Source: Coriobacterium glomerans PW2
GTDB taxonomy: Bacteria > Actinomycetota > Coriobacteriia > Coriobacteriales > Coriobacteriaceae
Direction: 5' to 3'
NCBI RefSeq assembly: GCF_000195315.1
Contig: NC_015389.1
Span: 930,001 to 994,000, forward strand
Length of the DNA stretch: 64,000 nt
Part shown: positions 52,820 to 58,483 of the stretch, piece after piece
Position numbering within the stretch: position 1 is the stretch's first letter
How the letters are laid out: every line of letters starts with the position of its first letter
Position numbers and translations under genes: made by a program
Notes under the pieces: model-generated
What the model saw: the letters and a program-made list of their open reading frames with translations, nothing else
Database searches by the model: none
Told to the model about the DNA's origin: nothing

Positions 52820-54570
52820 AGCTCACGATCGACGGCCGCGACGTGGAGGTCGCCGAGCACACGACGATTCTGGAGGCGGCGCTTGCCGCAGGCATCCGGA
52901 TCCCCACGCTGTGCTATCTGAAAAATCTGAACGAGATCGGATCGTGCCGGGTGTGCGTTGTCGAGGTCGAGGGAATCGACCAGCTCGTCGCGGCTTGCAA
53001 CAACTATGTGCTCGACGGCATGGTCGTGCACACGAACAGTCCGAGCGTGCGCATCGCGCGCAAGGTGAATGTCGAGTTTCTGCTCTCGCAGCATGACTCC
53101 GAGTGCACGAGCTGCGTGCGCTCGGGCAACTGCTCGCTGCAGACGCTCTCCAACGATCTGGGCATCGCCCAGCTGCCCTTTGACAAGCACCTCGCCGGCG
53201 AGCACTGGAACCTCTCGTTCCCGCTCATCCGCAACAATGACAAGTGCATCAAGTGCATGCGCTGCATCCAGGTCTGCGACAAGGTCCAAGCCACCGGCGT
53301 GTGGGACATCACGAACCGTGCCGGCCATACGATGGTGAACACCGTCGGCGGCAAGCCGATCGAGGAGACGGGATGCTCGCTGTGCGGACAGTGCATCACG
53401 CACTGTCCGGTGGGCGCGCTGCGCGAGCGCGATGACACCGAGCAGGTCTTTGACGCTCTTGGCGATCCGGAGCGCATCTGTCTGGTTCAGATCGCCCCGG
53501 CCGTGCGCACCGCCTGGGGAGAGACGTTCGGTCTCGCACCGGGTCAGGCGACCGTCGAGCGGCTGGCCGCGGCACTGCGCATGGTCGGCTTCGATTATAT
53601 CTTCGACACGAGCTTCTCCGCCGATCTCACTATCATGGAGGAGGCTTCAGAGCTGCTCGAGCGGCTGAAGCGCGCCGGCGAGTCCGGCGAGCATCCGACG
53701 TTCCCGATGTTCACGTCATGCTGTCCGGGCTGGGTGCGCTACGTGAAGGACCACTACCCCGAGCTCGTCGACCAGCTGTCCACCTCAAAATCGCCGCAGC
53801 AGATGTTCGGCGCGATCGCGAAGACCTACTATGCTCAGGCGCTCGGGGTCGATCCGAGCAAGATCTTCTCGGTCTCCATCATGCCGTGCGTGGCAAAGAA
53901 GGCCGAGGCGGCGCTGCCCTCGATGACCGGAGCCGACGGCGCGCCGGATGTCGATGTTGCGCTTACGGTTCGAGAGGTGTGCCGCATGGTCAAGGCCTGC
54001 CACATCGATGTCGCCAAGCTTGACGACGAGCCGCTGGATCAGCCGCTCGGCACCCACACGGGGGCCGGCGTGGCGTTTGGATCGACCGGTGGCGTCATGG
54101 ATGCCGCTTTGCGGAGCGCCTATTATTTTGCGACTGGCGAGCGATGCGATGCGGATGCGTTCAGCGATGTGCGCGGGATGGACGGCTGGAAGGAAGCGAC
54201 CTTCACCATGGGCGACAAAGCGCTCAAGGTCGCGGTCGTCCACGGGCTGGCCAACGCGCGCAACCTGCTCGATGCCCTGAAAAGCGGTGAGGTCGGCTAC
54301 GACTTCGTCGAGGTGATGGCCTGTCCGGGTGGCTGCGTCGGCGGCGGCGGACAGCCCATTCATGACGGCATGGAGCTCGCGGGCGAGCGTGGTGAGGTCC
54401 TATGGGGCTTGGATCGCAGCTCGAATCTTCGCCGCTCCTACGAGAATCCCGCGATCCAGATGTGCTACGCGGACTATCTGGGCGCTCCGCTGTCCGAGCG
54501 CGCGGAGGAGCTGCTCCACACCGACCAGCGCGCATGGACGATGCCAGGCGAGCGAGAGGAGTGCTTATGA
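52813..54570 (+). CDS. hydA: [FeFe]-hydrogenase catalytic subunit
   Basis: 585 residues from ATG 52813 (GGAGGGAGG upstream). N-terminal [2Fe-2S] domain (Cys34, 45, 48, 62), His94-Cys98-Cys101-Cys107 [4Fe-4S], two ferredoxin clusters (CIKCMRCIQVC, CSLCGQCITHC), then the H-cluster: L1 TSCCPGW (301-307), L2 MPCVAKKAE (357-365), L3 EVMACPGGCVGGGGQP (499-514). All ligands and the proton-relay Cys are intact. Same domain set as clostridial CpI-type (M3) enzymes. No maturases HydEFG in the window. Confidence 0.96.
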   Translation: MVKLTIDGRDVEVAEHTTILEAALAAGIRIPTLCYLKNLNEIGSCRVCVVEVEGIDQLVAACNNYVLDGMVVHTNSPSVRIARKVNVEFLLSQHDSECTSCVRSGNCSLQTLSNDLGIAQLPFDKHLAGEHWNLSFPLIRNNDKCIKCMRCIQVCDKVQATGVWDITNRAGHTMVNTVGGKPIEETGCSLCGQCITHCPVGALRERDDTEQVFDALGDPERICLVQIAPAVRTAWGETFGLAPGQATVERLAAALRMVGFDYIFDTSFSADLTIMEEASELLERLKRAGESGEHPTFPMFTSCCPGWVRYVKDHYPELVDQLSTSKSPQQMFGAIAKTYYAQALGVDPSKIFSVSIMPCVAKKAEAALPSMTGADGAPDVDVALTVREVCRMVKACHIDVAKLDDEPLDQPLGTHTGAGVAFGSTGGVMDAALRSAYYFATGERCDADAFSDVRGMDGWKEATFTMGDKALKVAVVHGLANARNLLDALKSGEVGYDFVEVMACPGGCVGGGGQPIHDGMELAGERGEVLWGLDRSSNLRRSYENPAIQMCYADYLGAPLSERAEELLHTDQRAWTMPGEREECL

Positions 54571-55601
54571 TGCCTGACACAGCGCGCGGCCGAATCCGCC
54601 GCGGCGGTCTCGCCGCGCTCGCGCTCGTCTTTGCGCTGACGATCTGTCTGGGAGGGTGCTCGGGCAAGCCGACAGCGCCCGCGGGCTCCGATAAGGGCGG
54701 CTCCGCTCGCACGGAGGTGCGCGTCGCCTCCCTCAAGGGCCCCACATCGATCGGTCTGCTATCGTTCATGGAGCGCTCATCTTCCGGCGAGACGAAGTCC
54801 TCCTTCGATTTCTCGATCGATGCCACTCCCGACGAGATCGTTCCGAAGATCATTCAGGGTAAGGCGGACATCGCGCTCATCCCGGCCAACGCGGCTTCGG
54901 TGCTGTATTCGAAGACGTCCGGCGGCGTCACCGTCTTGGATGTGAACACGCTCGGCGTGCTTTCCGTCGTCACCTCCGATGAGTCGATCGCGAACTTCAA
55001 TGACCTCGCTCAACATAGGATTCTGATGACCGGCAAGGGAATGGTCCCCGAGTACACCATGAACTACCTGCTCAAGCAGGCGGGCATTGCCGACACGGTC
55101 AAACTTGAGTTCAAAAGCCAGCCGGAGGAGGTCATCGCGGCGCTCGCGAAGGATCCCGCCGCCGTCGGTATCTTGCCGCAGCCGTTCACCACGGCCGCCT
55201 TGGCGAAGAACACCGCGCTGCGCGCACCGCTCAACTTGAGCGATGTCTGGGATGGTCTCGCTGCGAGCACGGGCAGCAGGATGCTCACCGGCGTGACGAT
55301 CGTGCGCACGAAGTTTTTGAAGGAGCACCCCGAGGCCGTCAAGGAGTTTCTGGAGGAGCAGCAGGCATCGGTCAAGGCGATCAACGCAGATCCGTCGGCG
55401 GCGGCGAAGCTCGTCGTCAAACACGGCATCATCGACAGCGAAGATGTTGCCAGACGGGCCATTCCGGGATGTCAGCTCGTCTGCCTGACGGGAAACGATA
55501 TGAAGACCGCCCTGAGCGGTTATCTGAGCGTGCTCTTCGAGCAGGATCCGACATCGGTCGGCGGCAAGCTGCCGGCCGACGATTTCTACTACGTCCCCTG
55601 A
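54567..55601 (+). CDS. ABC transporter substrate-binding lipoprotein (SsuA/TauA/NMT1-like)
   Basis: 344 residues from ATG 54567 overlapping the hydA stop. Lipoprotein signal with lipobox LGGC at about residues 28-31, then a periplasmic-binding fold of the SsuA/NMT1 class (VASLKGPTSIGLLSFMER, IIQGKADIALIPANAASVLY, LLKQAGIADTVKLEF). The matching permease-ATPase is not adjacent but may be the fused gene at 58521-59948. Coupling to hydA suggests that its ligand supports hydrogenase function or regulation, but no residue shows the ligand. Confidence 0.85.
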   Translation: MMPDTARGRIRRGGLAALALVFALTICLGGCSGKPTAPAGSDKGGSARTEVRVASLKGPTSIGLLSFMERSSSGETKSSFDFSIDATPDEIVPKIIQGKADIALIPANAASVLYSKTSGGVTVLDVNTLGVLSVVTSDESIANFNDLAQHRILMTGKGMVPEYTMNYLLKQAGIADTVKLEFKSQPEEVIAALAKDPAAVGILPQPFTTAALAKNTALRAPLNLSDVWDGLAASTGSRMLTGVTIVRTKFLKEHPEAVKEFLEEQQASVKAINADPSAAAKLVVKHGIIDSEDVARRAIPGCQLVCLTGNDMKTALSGYLSVLFEQDPTSVGGKLPADDFYYVP

Positions 55602-55615
55602 GTTCAAGCGATTTC

Positions 55616-55657
55616 GGACCGCCCCCTATCTGGCCGGTGCGGGGCGGTCCCGTTTTC
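55616..55657 (+). terminator. Terminator of the hydrogenase operon
   Basis: GGACCGCCCC (55616-55625) pairs perfectly with GGGGCGGTCC (55641-55650), followed by CGTTTTC. Confidence 0.85.
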
Positions 55658-55695
55658 AGGTATCCAAGCAAGGTTCCGTCTCATGTCGGAGGCTG

Positions 55696-55704
55696 TGGTA
55701 TAGT
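55696..55704 (+). promoter_or_regulatory. Extended -10 promoter of the leader ORF/adhesin unit
   Basis: TGGTATAGT is an extended -10 element 92 bases before the leader ORF start. The -35 region (TTCCGT at a 19-base spacing) is weak. It lies just after the hydrogenase-operon terminator, so the adhesin unit is transcribed independently. Confidence 0.5.
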
Positions 55705-55795
55705 GTTGATCAAAAGAGACAGGAGAGTTTGCGTCTCGTGCACTTCGCTGTGATGCGGGAAATAGGCTTGGATCATCTCTGGGGAGGAGTAACGC

Positions 55796-56183
55796 ATGCA
55801 CAAGTATATGGGCTGGTTCGTATGCTGCGGACCACACCTGTGTGGGATAAGGCTGTCTAGGCCGAGTACCACAGCGGGGGGGGGGGGCTCCTAGAAAAGC
55901 ATCTCTGACTCTTCGTTATCCGGATCCTTTGCACATTACGGATGTCTCCGAACCGGCTTTTGCCGATGGCGCAACCGAGTCTTGCGTCCAAAGAACACCT
56001 CGTTGCTCTGCCTTCACGTCGACCCGCACGGGCGCAGCAGCAGATGGTATAAGCGATACAGAAGACAAATCAATACAGAAGCACGAAACGGGAGTCTGTG
56101 CGAGCCGCGTTGAATTCGCATCGCTTAATCTTGTCGATGAAAATCGCACTCCGGTCGACAACGCATCTGGAGTGCGTCTATGA
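55796..56183 (+). CDS. Phase-variable leader ORF candidate, out of frame at a G12 tract
   Basis: ATG 55796 follows a near-perfect GGGGAGGAG site. As sequenced, the frame reads 32 residues (MHKYMGWFVCCG to the tract) and stops at TAG 55892-55894 just after twelve Gs. With 11 or 14 Gs the frame instead continues for about 128 residues through an open frame ending at TGA 56181-56183, which overlaps the adhesin ATG as ATGA. With 13 Gs it stops early again. The product has no known domain and no clear signal peptide. Best read as a coupling leader switched by slipped-strand mispairing, or as a gene already decayed by a frameshift. Confidence 0.45.
55876..55887. repeat. Homopolymeric G12 tract (phase-variation candidate)
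   Basis: Twelve consecutive Gs within the leader ORF, the longest homopolymer noticed in the window. Poly-G/C tracts of this length are classic sites of slipped-strand mispairing in bacterial surface-protein genes. It is 293 bases upstream of the adhesin start. Confidence 0.7.
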
Positions 56184-58483
56184 GCGGGCGCGCAACGGTC
56201 AAAAGATTCCGGAGGAATCTTTTCATAATCTGCTCGGCTCTATTCCTCATGTTGACGACCGCTTTGAATCTCTGGGCGCAGGAAAGCCAGCCTGCGACTC
56301 GATTTGTTCAAGAAGAACGCGAAGATCAATCTTGCGAGAAAAAAGGCGCGCCGAGGCAGGATGATCAAGCACCAGAGGGTTTGCCCGACTGCAACGAGAA
56401 AGAAAACAACTCTCAGATTCCCACGAAATCGAGTGATGAGCCGCAGAGCTCCTCAGTCTCGCAAACTGGTGTAGAAACAGTCAGCTTTCGGGCACCCATA
56501 ACAATCGGCGACAAACAGATAGCCTGCTCTTTCATCGGAGATGTGGGTGCTCACACCGCAATGCTGTCTTCGCTGCTGGACAAGAGCGCGAGCGGCGCCA
56601 TCGCCAAACTTCCTGAGACGATCTCTGATGGCGCGAACAGCTACAAGGTGACGGTTGTGGGAGATTTTGCATTCGAGGGATCACCAAACATCACCTCCAC
56701 TGGACTCGCCGGCAATAAAAGCATTACGTATGTCGGCAGCGGTGCTTTCAAAAACTGCATCGGTTTGATATCGACCGGGCTGGATGGCAACGACATGATC
56801 AAGACGATGATGGGCGATCACGGGGGCGTGTACACGGGCGTATTCATGGGATGCACATCGCTCACGAGAACCGGCCTCGAGGGCAATCATACTCTCACCC
56901 ATATTGGCGGAACCTTTTGGGGCTGCACTTCACTGCTCAGCACAGGTCTGAAAGACAACCGCACAATAACGTACGTCGGCGGAAATGCTTTCCGAAACTG
57001 CACCAGTCTCAAATCCGCTGATCTGGGCAGCGATCGAATCAGCAGAGTATGGGAAAATGCATTCAAGGATTGTTCCGGACTGACCGCGACCGGTCTCGAA
57101 GATAATCACAGCATCACAGACATCGGCCCCAGCGCATTTGAGAACTGCGTCAATCTGGGCAGAGCAAGCGACGTCACCGGGGCCACGAATACAGGTGACC
57201 TGGTGATCAATCAGCCAAGTGATGGAACGAGGATGACTATAGAAGCTCGGGCGTTTCTAGGCACGAGCTACAACTCGCTTTATCTGCTTTGCAACGGCCA
57301 AGCTTCAGGGCCTGATGTCGCACCGGACGGCATCTCTCCTTCGGCCATAAAAAAGGTCTATGTTCAATCCTCGTGGTTGGGGTCCATCACTTGGAGGAAC
57401 TACAGCGTCGCCGAAGGCTCGCTCGTCATCATGAATCCCCCGATTTTGTCTATGAACGCGAAGCGTGTGCCGGGTACCTCGGATGCCGCGTCAGTCGAAC
57501 TCCAGATCGCTCAGTCTTTTACAGGTCAGATCAACGATGCCTCAGGACACATGATCAAGCGTTTTTCTGTGAACAAGAATCCCTCGAATCCCACTGAAGT
57601 CGTGAAACTGAATACCGATCGCAATACGGGTCTCGCGCCGGGTTCCGAAACACTGAGTGTTCGCAACGTATCACCGGGATCCTTCATTTTTCCAGCTGGT
57701 TCCAGGGCACGCCCCTACAACTCGGTTTCCTCCTCCGGGAAATCCTGCGGTCTTTCCGCTGTCGCCTACAAGGTGGCGTTCGACCCGGCTGGAGGCACAG
57801 GTGCCATGCCCGATCAACCTATGACCTACGGGGTAGAAGCGCCACTCGAGCAATGCGGCTTTACCCGAGGCCACTACGCTTTCGTCTGCTGGGACGCAGG
57901 TGCCGGCGGGAGGTCCTACGCCGACAAGGAAAGAGTTTCAAATCTGAGCGATCTCGAAGGAGCCACGGTCACCCTGCGGGCGATCTGGAAATCAACCGTT
58001 TCGCTCGAGCTCATGATTTCGAGTCGTATGGCAGGTACAGGAGGTGGCTCCCCGCTTGCCGGCGCGGGTTACGCGCTGTCAGCAACCTCGGATGTCGCCG
58101 ACGAGATCTACGATGTCTACACCGATCCCGAGATGCATCACCGTGTCGAGTCGTGGCCGCAGATGTCGGCCTCCGATGGAAATCTGCGGCTCTATGGGGT
58201 CTCGCCGGGAACCTACCACCTACTGAACCTTTCGGCTCCTACAGGCTACCAAGTCTGCCCAGATGCTCATGTTTTCACTGTGGGCGACGATGGTTCGGTG
58301 TCCGTGGACGGAGTCCCTTATAAGCCCGCCGCCGGCGTGATCGCGCTTACGATGGACTTTTTGCCCGCACCGGTCTTGCCGGGTACCGGTGTGAACTCCG
58401 CTGGGCACCCAGAGAGCGTCGCCGTGCTCGTAGCGTTGGCTGCCGGAGCGCTCGCCGCGCCGCTTGTGCGCCGGCGGAGCTGA
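56180..58483 (+). CDS. LPGTG-anchored BspA-like leucine-rich-repeat surface protein
   Basis: 767 residues. Signal peptide (VKRFRRNLFIICSALFLML to NLWA), a Ser/Glu/Gln-rich stalk, then about six BspA/LRR_5-type repeats of roughly 25 residues (pattern ITYVGSGAFKNCIGLISTGL) around residues 155-330; an InlB B-repeat/Flg_new-like module (VAFDPAGGTGAMPDQPMTYG); a SpaA/Cna-B-like domain (SPLAGAGYAL, GVSPGTYHLLNLSAPTGY); and sortase signal LPGTG (733-737), hydrophobic helix, RRRS tail. A wall-anchored adhesin for host or mucosal binding is likely. AT-richer at its 5' half than neighbours. Only a weak GGAG precedes its ATG, which overlaps the leader ORF stop. Confidence 0.85.
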   Translation: MSGRATVKRFRRNLFIICSALFLMLTTALNLWAQESQPATRFVQEEREDQSCEKKGAPRQDDQAPEGLPDCNEKENNSQIPTKSSDEPQSSSVSQTGVETVSFRAPITIGDKQIACSFIGDVGAHTAMLSSLLDKSASGAIAKLPETISDGANSYKVTVVGDFAFEGSPNITSTGLAGNKSITYVGSGAFKNCIGLISTGLDGNDMIKTMMGDHGGVYTGVFMGCTSLTRTGLEGNHTLTHIGGTFWGCTSLLSTGLKDNRTITYVGGNAFRNCTSLKSADLGSDRISRVWENAFKDCSGLTATGLEDNHSITDIGPSAFENCVNLGRASDVTGATNTGDLVINQPSDGTRMTIEARAFLGTSYNSLYLLCNGQASGPDVAPDGISPSAIKKVYVQSSWLGSITWRNYSVAEGSLVIMNPPILSMNAKRVPGTSDAASVELQIAQSFTGQINDASGHMIKRFSVNKNPSNPTEVVKLNTDRNTGLAPGSETLSVRNVSPGSFIFPAGSRARPYNSVSSSGKSCGLSAVAYKVAFDPAGGTGAMPDQPMTYGVEAPLEQCGFTRGHYAFVCWDAGAGGRSYADKERVSNLSDLEGATVTLRAIWKSTVSLELMISSRMAGTGGGSPLAGAGYALSATSDVADEIYDVYTDPEMHHRVESWPQMSASDGNLRLYGVSPGTYHLLNLSAPTGYQVCPDAHVFTVGDDGSVSVDGVPYKPAAGVIALTMDFLPAPVLPGTGVNSAGHPESVAVLVALAAGALAAPLVRRRS

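Follow-up and report, generated by a model that had tools for sequence, protein, structure and literature searches.

A poly-G tract in a leader reading frame as a candidate switch for translational coupling of a surface adhesin in Coriobacterium glomerans PW2

Introduction

The closest precedent for the locus described here is provided by the G-tracts of the sortase-dependent pili of Bifidobacterium breve, which join a signal peptide to the mature protein, occur at mixed lengths as shown by maximum-depth sequencing, and are reported to be accompanied by polarity (Penno et al. 2022, PMC9187656). The tract length deposited for B. breve was not the one that prevailed in the culture (PMC9187656), so that an OFF state read from an assembly, as below, may not match the living strain. 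Repeats of the same kind act in other positions elsewhere. Of the two receptor genes of the Neisseria hpuAB system, hpuA carries a poly-G tract, and phase variation affects both components (PMC3786947, on hpuAB / hmbR); in Helicobacter pylori, a variable G-repeat in the mRNA leader of tlpB is read by the small RNA RepG (PMC8295292). In most coding switches based on repeats, it is the surface protein itself that is broken or restored, and the amino acids encoded by the tract, together with the neighbouring sequence, are therefore constrained by that protein.

Here, we analyse a run of 12 Gs in a short leader ORF upstream of an adhesin gene of Coriobacterium glomerans PW2, in a 64-kb window (the whole stretch of DNA that was analysed, positions 930001–994000 of a single-contig genome of 2,115,681 bases; all features given in window coordinates lie on the forward strand). 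The bacterium is probably an insect-gut symbiont, C. glomerans PW2 being a gut symbiont of firebugs. The arrangement resembles that of B. breve in that an actinobacterial gut symbiont carries a tract of 10–12 Gs close to the 5′ end of a gene for an LPxTG surface protein, with ON and OFF states set by reading frame. In B. breve, however, the tract lies within one protein, whereas the present locus has a separate leader ORF, an ATGA overlap and a Shine–Dalgarno (SD) sequence that is predicted to be masked. Unlike hpuA, which encodes a functional lipoprotein that forms part of the receptor, the leader has no recognisable function; and although poly-G in the tlpB leader tunes a downstream surface gene, as is proposed here, there the repeat is bound by a small RNA, whereas here it is crossed by a reading frame. 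Coupling through leader ORFs is general in bacteria: an upstream ORF overlaps the downstream start, and the leader ribosome opens a hairpin over the SD. To our knowledge, no case has been described in which such coupling depends on a hypermutable tract within the leader. We found no clear precedent for phase variation that operates via a leader of its own or via an upstream ORF coupled to the target, in a survey that consisted mostly of titles and abstracts and is incomplete in coverage.

Results

Reading frames through the G12 tract

The leader ORF starts at an ATG at 55796, preceded by ggGGAGGAGtaacgc and served by the SD sequence GGAGGAG (55783–55789), which is predicted to be accessible, with an unpaired probability of 0.81 in the predicted fold (85th percentile among 110 genes of the genome). 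Translation from this start leads into the G12 homopolymer, a presumed slippage switch at 55876–55887; no run of this length arose when the window was dinucleotide-shuffled 100 times. As assembled, with 12 Gs, the ORF is OFF: it comprises 32 codons (55796–55894) and yields the 32-residue product MHKYMGWFVCCGPHLCGIRLSRPSTTAGGGGS, terminated at the TAG inside CTCCTAG, the stop ending at 55894. With 13 Gs, the stop falls at 55908. For tract lengths of 8 to 15 Gs, the leader would have 127, 31, 36, 128, 32, 37, 129 and 33 residues, in that order, so that only 8, 11 and 14 Gs keep it open to the TGA at 56181–56183. The 12 nucleotides 3′ of the tract, CTCCTAGAAAAG (55888–55899), encode APRK in the ON frame and supply the TAG in one of the OFF frames. 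A first-pass annotation had proposed that a strong ribosome-binding site and ATG lead into 12 Gs, and that a single frame (11 or 14 Gs) escapes early stops and ends in an ATGA overlap with the adhesin start; all of this holds in the sequence and the computed frames, the TGA at 56181–56183 overlapping the ATG at 56180 within ATGA (56180–56183). The open stretch beyond the tract, put there at about 95 codons, is present and comprises exactly 98 (55887–56183).

Shuffles of its own composition left this tail open in 155 of 5000 cases (3.1%), and the equivalent tail at a second locus, described below, in 330 of 5000 (6.6%). The joint chance of both open tails is ~0.2%, a figure that leaves out of account the frame, the flank and the ATGA ending that the two loci have in common.

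The adhesin gene and its upstream boundary

The gene behind the leader (56180–58483) encodes a 767-residue adhesin. Inspection shows a signal peptide, and the protein has BspA-type LRR_5 repeats and a SpaA domain and carries an LPGTG sorting signal at its C terminus. As at contingency loci, a long homopolymer lies in a translated region, its length sets the reading frame, and the product behind it is a surface protein, a BspA LRR/SpaA/LPGTG adhesin that would be the gene under control of the tract. Upstream of the leader lies a gene for an ABC substrate-binding protein (54402–55601), whose 3′ side carries a terminator-like GC hairpin with a short T run (55615–55656); the fold of 55598–55662 reaches –31 kcal/mol (z –3.3), and a strict terminator scan did not call the hairpin. 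Because this strong GC hairpin with its T run separates them from the ABC substrate-binding-protein gene, leader and adhesin probably form a unit of their own. No sigma-70-like or consensus promoter was found in 55500–56400. A role of the poly-G as a promoter spacer, with the tract between –35 and –10 elements, was rejected, as promoter-like hexamers are absent around the tract.

A predicted hairpin over the adhesin Shine–Dalgarno sequence

The adhesin SD, GGAG (56169–56172), sits 7 nt from the ATG and is predicted to be masked by a hairpin (56145–56176) with a perfect 10-bp stem, CGCACTCCGG / CTGGAGTGCG, in which 56145–56154 pairs with 56167–56176. The SD lies inside the 3′ arm, the 5′ arm belongs to the leader ORF, and the leader frame traverses the whole hairpin. 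The mean unpaired probability of this SD is 0.01, the 1st percentile among the same 110 genes. Locally, the 43-nt hairpin folds at about –18 kcal/mol, whereas shuffled versions give –7.7 kcal/mol (z –4.6, p 0.0005); an 81-nt stretch around it is of ordinary stability (z –0.5), and folds of the whole leader are no more stable than shuffles, and our claim is accordingly limited to the local hairpin at the SD. When the upstream arm was barred from pairing in a constrained fold, most of the SD region paired elsewhere rather than being freed; we consequently infer the unmasking step rather than compute it. A ribosome that ends the leader at 56183 must cross the hairpin, which is the usual way in which coupled genes unlock. 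As in coupled gene pairs, the upstream stop overlaps the downstream start, with ATGA at both the window locus and the second one.

A second, diverged locus

A genome search for GGGGGGCTCCTAGAAA returned exactly two perfect sites, the window locus and a site at 124384. The latter belongs to a locus 860 kb from the window adhesin, where a G10 tract at genome position 124380 stands in the same layout: a leader ATG (L052:6303), the G10 run, an identical 12-nt flank, and ATGA with an adhesin start. This leader is open with 10 or 13 Gs as far as the TGA within ATGA, and with G10 it is currently in frame. At each of the two loci, one frame of three is open, and the OFF frames end alike, in GGGGS followed by a stop and in GGGLLEK.L followed by a stop. 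The second locus encodes a paralogous BspA/SpaA/LPGTG adhesin, which is 39% identical to that of the window where the two can be aligned. The leader tails, of 98 codons in the window and 76 codons at the second locus, have diverged; two motifs are common to both, APRK.S behind the tract and ETG.C..R..F.S, with a local score p of ~0.01. Since a second, diverged copy exists in the genome, the tract looks like a real on/off switch and not like a chance run.

The second adhesin gene (L052:6617–8812, genome 124616–126811) contains a single in-frame TGA, at codon 64, and may therefore be decaying. Its SD, GGAGG, pairs with a downstream CCTCC in a local fold of unexceptional stability (z +0.6), and the SD of its leader is weak.

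Poly-G tracts at other surface genes

The genome contains 22 G or C tracts of at least 9 and 13 of at least 10. Among these, a G11 tract at 387106 (L041:6607–6617) lies within the 5′ portion of the coding sequence of a BspA/SpaA adhesin gene and is ON at 9 or 12 Gs, and a G10 tract at 1187342 (L032:6343–6352, minus strand) comes immediately after the signal-peptide codons of a gene for a SpaA/Cna_B surface protein and is likewise ON at 9 or 12 Gs; both are OFF as assembled, and both in-gene tracts look much like those of B. breve. Another G10 tract, at 1477991 (L034:6492–6501, minus strand), lies in the 5′ part of a membrane-like ORF of ~560 codons that has no Pfam match; it is ON at 11 Gs and OFF as assembled. 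Among 11 genes with a SpaA domain, four tracts fall in the 5′ part, where 0.03 would be expected, with P ~2e-8, or ~1e-6 if 30 SpaA-type genes are assumed (overall range about 1e-6 to 1e-9); these values are indicative, since both the SpaA genes and the 450-base 5′ intervals were chosen after the pattern had been seen. The tracts of the paralogous surface genes have 10, 11 and 12 Gs, and the loci are not alleles of one another. It is likely that the G12 tract is part of a surface-protein phase-variation repertoire, of which the leader arrangement is a variant. The proposed leader gate was anticipated to be unusual, and it is, in a narrower sense: two other surface genes of this genome carry conventional in-gene poly-G, in the sense orientation, which makes the gate a variant within a known strategy.

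Further tracts stand in other contexts. The longest, G13 at genome position 415529 (L040:6530–6542), lies at the end of an apparently frame-broken AAA_14 ATPase ORF. A C10 and a G11 run, 31 nt apart, are situated between two tandem genes for LPxTG-type proteins (genome 546404–546455, L042:6405–6456). A G11 run at genome position 38054 (L043:7055–7065, minus strand) ends 8 nt ahead of an ATG, and could serve as an SD or as an in-frame extension of a membrane-protein gene. A CRISPR-like repeat array, whose repeat contains CCCCGCACATGCGGGGATGATCC, has a C9 run at its edge (L020:577–1500, genome ~496 kb).

The leader product

The ON-frame tails score –0.18 (window) and –0.25 (second locus) bits per codon in codon usage, against medians of +0.26 for genuine genes read in frame and –0.40 for wrong frames. 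The first 100 codons of the adhesin themselves score –0.14 bits per codon, so that the whole region is atypical in codon usage. Weak codon usage in the tail fits a frame whose openness serves the passage of ribosomes and not the making of a product, and also fits a weak or accidental ORF. Membership of the leader in a known protein family was rejected, with Pfam and NCBIfam matches absent, and so was identity with a known RNA element, for which only a sub-threshold chance match was obtained. No orthologous leader was found in 400 Coriobacteriia genomes. In the 66 other genomes of the family, there was no related adhesin at E values up to 1e-20 and no occurrence of GGGGGGGGCTCCTAGA, apart from a single site, whose G run is interrupted by a mismatch. 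Across genome contigs, the exact 18-mer GGGGGGGGCTCCTAGAAA gave one apparently chance match, on an Acidimicrobiaceae contig with no adhesin-like ORF nearby. The evidence comes from one genome, the only one of its genus in the comparison set.

Discussion

We regard a poly-G contingency locus, with leader-gated translational coupling of the adhesin, as the best explanation of these observations and as reasonably probable. Replication slippage would alter the tract length. At a tract length of 11 or 14 Gs, ribosomes that had entered at the strong SD of the leader would pass along the tail, open up the hairpin predicted to mask the adhesin SD, terminate in ATGA and then initiate or reinitiate on the adhesin. 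With 12 or 13 Gs (12 in the assembly), they would stop within 37 codons, 270–290 nt before the adhesin; the adhesin SD would remain masked and adhesin output would presumably be low. The first-pass annotation had already proposed a leader gate: its frame arithmetic stands and the idea is partly supported, and strengthened, by the second locus and the predicted SD-sequestering hairpin, while slippage in the cell, hairpin formation, coupling or reinitiation and the effect on adhesin protein are steps that we infer.

Several features of the locus can be read otherwise. The OFF frames leave ~290 nt of leader RNA untranslated, which could permit early transcription termination (e.g. by Rho), with the ATGA overlap and the hairpin being secondary. 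Both early stops and a long untranslated stretch are present at the window locus, and polarity has been reported below an out-of-frame G-tract in the B. breve pilus operons (PMC9187656); the SD-masking hairpin, and the ATGA overlap found at both loci, would nevertheless be left unexplained, and we consider such transcriptional polarity, the main alternative to coupling, rather unlikely as the principal effect. It is compatible with coupling, and both can operate together. Greater doubt attaches to the view that the G-tract and open tail are products of chance or relics, the adhesin being translated from its own SD whatever the tract length. The poor coding statistics of the tail, the equally open tail in 3% of shuffles, the adhesin's own GGAG at 7 nt from its ATG and the nonsense codon in the second adhesin would all agree with this; but a neutral origin does not sit easily with the same layout and identical 12-nt flank at two diverged loci, the SD-masking hairpin, or the clustering of poly-G at surface genes, and we judge it improbable.

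The short motif ETG.C..R..F.S, conserved between the two leaders, might instead point to a functional, phase-variable small protein with which the adhesin is merely co-transcribed. This we hold to be very improbable, given a leader with neither Pfam/NCBIfam matches nor homologues among the 400 Coriobacteriia genomes, in which the eye finds no clear signal peptide, codon usage is weak and conservation is confined to short motifs.

Beyond leader-gated coupling at the window locus, the two adhesin loci may represent a reusable cassette, in which a dispensable leader serves solely to carry the hypermutable G-tract and to deliver ribosomes to a hairpin-locked surface gene while the adhesin sequence stays untouched; we see the case for this generalization as evenly balanced. 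If the leader gate is real, a separate coupled leader would free the adhesin from the constraint that an in-gene tract imposes, and tract length alone would set its expression. The Coriobacteriaceae would then join the few Gram-positive symbionts in which sortase substrates are switched by poly-G.
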